Shown here piece after piece: positions 5,473 to 5,921 of a stretch of DNA of 53,266 bases. This stretch comes from Rhodobacterales bacterium. Lineage in GTDB: Bacteria > Pseudomonadota > Alphaproteobacteria > Rhodobacterales > Rhodobacteraceae. Within the stretch, counting starts at the first letter, position 1; each line of letters begins with the position of its first letter. The position numbers and the translations under genes were made by a program. The notes below the pieces were generated by a model, which did not search any database, had not been told where the DNA came from, and saw only the letters and a program-made list of their open reading frames with translations. The stretch covers positions 1-53,266 of the forward strand of contig JAFLCY010000016.1 of the NCBI GenBank assembly GCA_017303485.1, in the 5' to 3' direction.

Positions 5473-5886
5473 TCAGGGCTGGTCCCCCGCCCGCGTGCCG
5501 TCATGCCGGAAGCCGGGGTCCAAAAGCCGGTCGAGAAGCGGTGACAGGTCCTCGATCAACTCGGCCACCACATGCACCACCCCTGCCTCGCGCTGCAGCT
5601 TCCCCGTCACCCTGAGCAGGCGGCCCGCGATCACCGCGCGGCGGAAGCGTTCGTAGACATTGGCCCAGACCACCACGTTCGCGGTCCCGGTCTCATCCTC
5701 CAGCGTGATGAAGATCACCCCCTTCGCCGTGCCGGGCCGCTGCCGCACCAGCACGAGGCCCGCCACCGTCACCCGCGCACCTGCAGGCGGTTCGCCCAGC
5801 CGGGCGGCTTGCAGCGCTTTCGGTGGGCGCGGCCAGGGATCCGCGCGCGAGGCAAGGTTTCGGGGCGGGGGGCTATAGGCGGTCAT
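5473..5886 (-). CDS. Stand-alone OB-fold protein resembling the C-terminal tail of DnaE2
   Basis: A 137-residue protein whose middle (about residues 34-120) reads like the OB-fold of the error-prone polymerase DnaE2: [58 protein letters not shown]. Full DnaE2 is about 1,000-1,100 residues, and no polymerase domain is encoded nearby, so this is either a remnant or an independent small gene. The usual DnaE2 C-terminal end is replaced by an unrelated tail. I chose the ATG at 5886, rather than 5916, because a GTTC-N7-GTTC SOS box and a -35/-10 pair sit directly before it. That arrangement implies a leaderless, LexA-repressed transcript, suggesting a living gene. Function unproven; nucleic-acid binding is inferred. 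Confidence 0.7.
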
Positions 5887-5888
5887 GA

Positions 5889-5903
5889 GAACAATGATAG
5901 AAC
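5889..5903 (-). promoter_or_regulatory. LexA/SOS operator (GTTC-N7-GTTC)
   Basis: On the minus strand the sequence is GTTCTATCATTGTTC, an exact match to the alphaproteobacterial SOS box GTTC-N7-GTTC. It covers the -10 element and ends 2 bases before the ATG of the DnaE2-tail gene, so bound LexA would block that promoter. The divergent ferredoxin gene starts about 90 bases away and is probably not controlled by it. Confidence 0.8.
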
Positions 5904-5921
5904 ATTTGCGTTGCAAGGCAA
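5894..5921 (-). promoter_or_regulatory. Candidate sigma-70-type promoter of the DnaE2-tail gene
   Basis: Minus-strand TTGCCT (5916-5921) and TATCAT (5894-5899) are separated by 16 bases. The -10 ends 7 bases before the start codon, so transcription would begin at or next to the ATG. There is no Shine-Dalgarno sequence, consistent with a leaderless mRNA. Prediction from sequence only. Confidence 0.5.

Follow-up and report, generated by a model that had tools for sequence, protein, structure and literature searches.

This report concerns a small gene in a 53,266-nucleotide (nt) stretch of Rhodobacterales DNA (contig JAFLCY010000016.1 of GenBank assembly GCA_017303485.1), which as a whole is called the window below. 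The gene lies at 5473..5886 on the minus strand (ATG at 5886-5884, stop codon ending at 5473), encodes a standalone DnaE2-type OB-fold protein of 137 amino acids (aa), and appears to be one half of a mutagenic polymerase divided between two genes. The protein belongs to the OB-fold family PF01336 (Pfam; E-value 9e-14) and covers only positions 942-1040 of the 1047 in the NCBIfam DnaE2 model NF004225 (E 7.6e-33), which is the C-terminal OB region and is what the first-pass annotation of this DNA had recognized in the open reading frame (ORF). The DnaE1 models gave E-values of 6.2e-7 or worse and the single-stranded DNA-binding protein (SSB) model 0.22, the best match being the C-terminal OB of DnaE2 and not DnaE1 or other OB proteins; moreover, the score against the SSB family PF00436 was 13.2 bits, below the cut-off of 26, and among the PHP, Pol3, HhH2, and OB parts that a whole DnaE2 joins in one polypeptide only the OB was found. 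A structure model predicted an OB barrel with a mean predicted local distance difference test score (pLDDT) of 80.5, and its PDB matches, namely the anticodon-binding domains of aspartyl- and lysyl-tRNA synthetases (AspRS, LysRS) and subunits of CST and RPA, show the OB fold and nothing more specific. This predicted barrel, together with conservation in relatives, agrees with the same annotation's proposal of a small protein built from the DnaE2 OB domain.

Just upstream of the ATG there is an SOS (LexA-type) box, GTTCTATCATTGTTC, at 5889..5903 on the minus strand, where LexA is predicted to bind and whose start lies 17 nt before the start codon. As noted at first pass, it is an exact GTTC-N7-GTTC box placed over a -10 element: a -10-like TATCAT (5894..5899, minus) lies inside it, and a 16-nt spacer separates this from a -35-like TTGCCT (5916..5921, minus), both elements being read from the sequence. 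By eye, TTG stands at about the -35 place in most of the printed OB loci, among the 61-locus set described below. Transcription would thus be expected to begin approximately 7 bases after the -10, at or next to the ATG, giving a putatively leaderless mRNA. A TTG start at 5916 (147 aa) was considered and judged unlikely, since relatives keep the start at the ATG that directly follows the box.

Four GTTC-N7-GTTC sites occur in the window where 1.2 would be expected, a count of four being reached by 4 of 100 shuffles; at the other three (17911, 36549, and 45063) no convincing promoter context was seen, as judged by eye. A chance origin of the box, as it might be argued from this single window, is dismissed because 58 of 61 loci have an exact box conserved close to the OB start. 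In the first set of loci the box was exact in 45/50, the remainder being L029 (contig edge), L044 (genome G045), L046 and L048 (pieces of fused genes), and L047 (weak partial match); the 61-locus set consists of those 50 loci without L029, L046-L048, and the duplicates L050-L052, plus 18 further loci. Box-to-start spacing was 16-18 nt in 50 of the 58 boxed loci, and the three without a box near the start were G045 (one-mismatch site only), G621 (outside the family, with a broken fused dnaE2), and G162, whose exact box sits further upstream, near the start of its longer ORF. Among 80 loci from named genomes, a few of which are already in the 61-locus set (e.g., L126, which is G055), a box was present near the OB in 38/41 standalone genes and in 0/32 fused DnaE2 genes, and seven loci were cut by contig ends.

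The OB gene was matched in 92 of 121 genomes searched (the window's own, 31 of the same genus, and others of the family and class). Within the genus it was a short stand-alone frame in 28/32 genomes, the window's own included, with relatives at 85-98% identity; the others were G004, G005, and G018, discussed below, and G026, which shows the box at the site and then the contig end. The first-pass annotation had proposed to look for the ORF and its upstream bases in other Rhodobacteraceae; both the ORF and the box are conserved in relatives. On the basis of the predicted fold and of nonsynonymous to synonymous rate ratios (dN/dS) by segment, the protein is laid out as a variable stretch (residues 1-17), a linker with WPRPP (18-38), the OB barrel (39-122), and a short conserved tail ending in RAGDQP (123-137); median dN/dS within the genus was 0.79, 0.117, 0.065, and 0.074, respectively (351 pairs of 27 sequences, L029 being omitted as cut). 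Standalone and fused proteins also differ at both sides of the barrel. WPxPP precedes it in 35/41 standalone and 0/32 fused proteins, and an RDFH-type C-terminus occurs in 0/41 and 29/32, respectively, fused L188, L192, and L204 ending, for example, in an (S)RDFH-type peptide. Since the linker is under selection, it may be regarded as the best candidate for a docking piece.

The gene also occupies a recognizable genomic site. In the window it is flanked by a divergent 2Fe-2S ferredoxin gene (5994..6317, plus strand), a conserved landmark which we do not claim as a part of the system, and by a convergent DegP/Do-type protease gene (3913..5367, plus strand), the second landmark. Among 78 OB loci, which include one fused locus and one genome twice, the ferredoxin gene was found in 74, on the opposite strand, and in 72 of them no more than 600 nt from where the OB match begins, and a degP-type gene lay on the other side, within the fetched stretch, in 54. 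Named carriers of the standalone gene include Gemmobacter, Tropicimonas, Mameliella, Roseovarius, Ruegeria, Maritimibacter, Palleronia, and Planktomarina.

The counterpart of this gene was found in the DnaE2 sequences of the same 121 genomes, which fall into two classes, ending at model positions of about 1037-1047 or of about 938-962, with a few more truncated at contig ends. The OB-less class occurs where the standalone OB occurs, and its end complements the OB span of 942-1040. Among the matches listed, 26 of the 28 OB-carrying genus members show an OB-less (or contig-cut) core, G002 (80% complete) and G010 (59%) showing none; the sole long exception, on contig C2 of G040, is a gene interrupted by the contig end whose OB lies at the opposite end of the contig, as for a cut circle. 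The first-pass annotation had suggested looking for a full dnaE2 elsewhere in the genome: a DnaE2 is indeed present, and the only one seen in most genus members stops before the OB. Our own initial reading, an OB gene in genomes that had lost DnaE2, was rejected for the same reason.

The 26 cores with a natural stop end in ...HPMALLRPVLDAA or ...LLTP..., 6-64 residues past an HPxxL(L/I)R motif, where most fused DnaE2 genes run on through the OB to ...PSRDFH. Pfam detected the pol3 alpha, finger, and HhH families and no OB family in all four scanned cores. The catalytic motifs PDIDxDF, LK(V/I)D(V/I)L, and GRGSAANS were kept in 28/28 split cores, and so was the clamp motif xLPLF, which in 19 has the form PLPLF described as the alpha-proteobacterial DnaE2 clamp motif (Timinskas et al., PMC3919608). 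Given these motifs and the position of the core end, the cut falls between the clamp motif and the OB. No intein family was found by Pfam at E-values up to 1 in the four cores and the window OB protein, making trans-splicing of the two parts unlikely; core and OB would consequently have to work in trans.

Across the family, pairing was based on the best 150 OB rows and the best 150 core rows over the same 295 genomes, low scorers such as G064 being uncounted. Among the matches listed, 127 genomes have a short OB frame that is separate from every listed core, 118 of them with an unfused core. The nine others were checked: G052, G170, and G257, whose fused genes are interrupted by contig ends, were excluded, so that 124 genomes with a true standalone OB remain; G140 (N-terminal part only), G147, G197, and G237 hold DnaE2 fragments, bringing to 122/124 the genomes with DnaE2 sequence unattached to an OB; and the last two are G130 (DnaE2 absent) and G315 (fused DnaE2 and a decayed core). 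A standalone OB is thus present in at least 124 of the 295 sampled genomes. Fused OB-core pairs numbered 14 among the matches listed, and genomes with a fused DnaE2 are mostly without a standalone OB, the exceptions being G066, the only one of those 14 genomes with a true standalone gene, and G315. Eighteen cores had no listed OB; 14 of these are frames longer than 1,100 aa in genomes that do have an OB match, its position ranking below the rows listed, as expected if fused, and four are considered below. For the resulting 122/2/4/167 table, Fisher's test gave p 2e-75, a value which ignores shared ancestry and treats unlisted genomes as having neither part.

G066, taken as Dinoroseobacter shibae, holds both arrangements, a split DnaE2 on the chromosome (C1 99834-102725 and C1 2893908-2894261) and a fused cassette on a plasmid (C4 60274-63618); a fused imuA-imuB-dnaE2 cassette has been described on the 126-kb plasmid of D. 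shibae (PMC9426580). When plasmids were searched with the OB query, 184 records matched, none covering 80% of the query; in the best 40 of the 184, the annotated genes are error-prone DNA polymerase or dnaE and look fused, the rest having no gene or annotation. In the class-wide search (385 genomes, among the matches listed), most OB matches outside the family lay in long frames, and seven were in frames shorter than 500 aa, six of them lying no further than about 1.1 kb from the start of a contig (G613, G506 C68, G610, G551, G394 C154, and G703). In the seventh, the one-contig genome G621, outside the family, a broken fused dnaE2 (L107, C1:3792695-3793910) has model positions 604-850 and 912-1047 in separate frames.

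The remaining mutasome genes are scattered in a similar way. ImuA, ImuB, and a catalytically intact core occur together in one genome, for example G007 (5 contigs), where one contig carries imuB, core, imuA, and OB at four sites far apart; for the window's own genome, contig ends interrupt both the core and imuB, and only a partial imuA match was obtained. In the split genomes tested, an exact box precedes imuA at 8/8 and imuB at 9/9 loci. For 26 cores, the 220 nt before the conserved N-terminal motif, read in either orientation, contained an exact box in 16 and none in three, the other seven having a one-mismatch box (mostly GAAC-N7-GAAT), which taken alone is weak evidence; in G042, one of the 16, the exact site is far upstream and a one-mismatch site stands at the usual place. 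At the sequence level, boxes are thus found on OB, core, imuA, and imuB, and the mutasome in split genomes is dispersed over about four putative LexA-type sites. The parts also disappear jointly. G005 (94% complete) lacks matches to DnaE2, imuB, imuA, and OB, the OB gene being gone from the fdx-degP site, and G018 (70% complete) shows the same joint absence. In G004, which has only a fused DnaE2, the OB site keeps GTTC-N7-GTTC and a scrap encoding IEDPSRLLDRL, the barrel being deleted, and this relic ties the OB gene to the split core.

From these data, the product of the window gene is very probably a C-terminal OB subunit detached from a split DnaE2 and working with the separately encoded core, DnaE2 appearing to be split into two unlinked genes in a large part of the family, as judged from the split itself, the co-occurrence, the joint loss, the boxes, and the selection described above. 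In an ancestor of that large part of the family, dnaE2 would have come apart at the linker between polymerase core and OB, the former becoming an OB-less gene and the latter a gene of its own next to the ferredoxin gene, where a separate LexA-type box covers the promoter. We infer that a duplicated, SOS-driven dnaE2 may have suffered an internal deletion that left box, few codons, linker, and OB in one step, an origin that would explain the nearly unconstrained first 17 residues. LexA on the box would block RNA polymerase, and its removal upon DNA damage would allow a leaderless mRNA to yield the OB protein while the boxed core, imuB, and imuA genes would be switched on at the same time. The OB protein would then dock on the core, perhaps via the split-specific WPRPP linker, restoring the core's grip on single-stranded template, and the assembled ImuA-ImuB-core-OB mutasome would copy past lesions with errors.

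Several observations weigh against this explanation. The co-occurrence count is uncorrected for shared ancestry and rests on the matches listed. Four core genomes (G123, G143, G241, and G259), whose DnaE2 ends at 938-941, have no OB match; because no ferredoxin landmark was found in G241 and G259 at E 1e-20, and in G123 only a 44% relative of it, the OB site is probably missing from these three assemblies, an explanation that does not extend to G143. The OB gene of G045 is without an exact box, and three cores show neither an exact nor a one-mismatch box: that of G000, cut by a contig end, that of G044, whose start was not located, and that of G064, which follows imuB, with a box before imuB. 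The window genome's own core lacks its N-terminus at a contig end, and the same assembly holds, at a contig edge (G000:C207:3-242, L218), a fused-type DnaE2 tail ending in ...IPKSRDFH, which may be foreign, since contamination of this assembly is 6.2%. A model of a fused DnaE2 (L188, the first in the alignment) had a mean pLDDT of 62.5 and a predicted template modelling score (pTM) of 0.36, was low over much of the OB, and gave no usable OB-core interface. Furthermore, G130 (100% complete, 7 contigs) has an OB with an exact box (L111, C4:2083570-2083938) and no DnaE2 core, pointing either to recent core loss or to a core-independent OB role, and G315 combines a boxed standalone OB (L110, C33:517874-518194) with core fragments (C11:322372-323414) and a fused DnaE2 (C26:104923-108159). 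From the gene content of these two genomes, the OB is able to persist after the core is lost, at least for some time.

These last two genomes speak for a different history, in which the OB became, after the fission, a small SOS-induced single-strand-binding protein acting apart from the DnaE2 core, and the new N-terminus and the lost RDFH tail would also suit it. We nonetheless consider it unlikely, as DnaE2 core sequence is present in 122 of the 124 OB genomes among the matches listed, the OB is missing together with the whole mutasome in G005 and G018, and the core would be left working without any OB in all those genera. A small SOS-box protein made of a polymerase domain could also be imagined as an inhibitor of the mutasome, for instance one competing with DnaE2 or ImuB at the clamp, as the first-pass annotation had envisaged. 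That idea was not supported, and we give it very little credit: the clamp-like patterns LPLF, QxxLF, and QLxLF/L were found in 0/61 OB proteins, xLPLF is kept in all 28 split cores, and the OB is mostly absent where DnaE2 is fused, although an inhibitor would be equally useful there. As the only DnaE2 seen in most genus members ends before the OB, the OB protein is most simply a detached domain of the polymerase and not an extra competitor.

The other possibility raised at first pass was that the ORF is what remains of an old dnaE2 and its GTTC-N7-GTTC site a coincidence, as coverage of the DnaE2 tail only might suggest. Purifying selection on the OB (dN/dS 0.065), intact frames and a conserved box in relatives, and one conserved site speak so strongly against it that we regard it as practically discounted, and the real relic in G004, of the same genus, lacks the barrel and looks quite different. 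Broken assemblies do account for the three dropped genomes, apparently for the cut circle of G040 C2, and for the broken gene of G621; however, as a general explanation, that fused dnaE2 genes were interrupted by contig ends or frameshifts, artefact is scarcely conceivable, because in 15 genomes a single contig holds both halves at a distance of about 0.2-4.0 Mb, and in G272 at one of 1.2 kb.

Regarding the age of the split, a tree of 43 cores, built with a quick method and with support from the Shimodaira-Hasegawa-like approximate likelihood ratio test (SH-aLRT) only, placed 26 split cores in one group (99), with G272 and G162 outside it, near the fused G035 and G354, and with G064 on a very long branch; three changes of fused/split state are needed. 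In G272 (L105, 3627-8370), core and OB are separated by 1.2 kb with an unrelated opposite-strand ORF between them, and the OB has its own exact box and keeps the ...PSRDFH tail, which looks like an early or separate fission. In G162 (L109, contig C42), the OB belongs to a frame of 400 aa in which a long repetitive stretch separates the barrel from a WPRPP further upstream, the tail is of the fused type (HPRDQ), and a separate fission is possible. The two may represent separate fissions, or one fission followed by re-fusions, between which the core tree cannot say.

DnaE2 drives SOS mutagenesis in many bacteria, and we know of no work in which the role of its OB domain in this process has been established. 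In this context, at least 124 sampled genomes offer a natural excision of the OB behind its own damage-type promoter, and the role of the OB in lesion bypass becomes testable through one small gene, with the polymerase untouched. There is also a consequence for annotation, since in these genomes DnaE2 would be taken for a truncated protein and the OB gene for a stray fragment, and half the enzyme is easily overlooked. More tentatively, and with rather less expectation that it will hold in full, we suggest a true two-subunit C-family polymerase with a dissociable, separately induced OB; with unlinked imuA, imuB, and core, this would form a four-operator LexA gate on mutagenesis, in which the OB could be the limiting switch that arms a weak core, and the G272 and G162 genes might be separate fissions, each behind an SOS box.

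Divided polymerases and dispersed mutasomes have parallels in known systems. In the split DnaE of cyanobacteria, inteins re-join the halves; no intein family was detected here in the four cores and the window OB, and the parts would work in trans. The likeness lies in a C-family polymerase encoded by two genes (PMC3919608). The mycobacterial imuA'-imuB and dnaE2 cassette is likewise split, its mutasome genes being at separate damage-controlled places (PMC10421592, PMC6511836), but there DnaE2 is one gene, whereas here the division runs through the polypeptide itself, and G007 has all four genes at separate locations. The standalone ImuB-C proteins are another case of a mutasome domain with a gene to itself, and it has been proposed that they act in trans as members of the complex (PMC3765255, PMC6511836, PMC12926913), the domain in that case being the C-terminus of ImuB and not the OB of DnaE2. 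Several DnaE2 sequences lacking an OB have been reported, and the sections consulted of that report do not mention an OB encoded elsewhere (Timinskas et al., PMC3919608); a 2026 survey of bacterial polymerases distinguishes 11 mutasome types in a main text without the terms "OB domain" or "OB-fold" (PMC12926913), and no in-trans OB gene for an OB-less DnaE2 was found in the portions of the open-access literature searched. The closest relative therefore remains DnaE2 (ImuC) itself, with which the split system shares the OB sequence, SOS-box control, ImuA and ImuB in the same genomes, and the catalytic motifs of the partner core, and from which it differs in that core and OB are unlinked genes, each with its box, the OB having gained the WPRPP linker and lost the RDFH tail.
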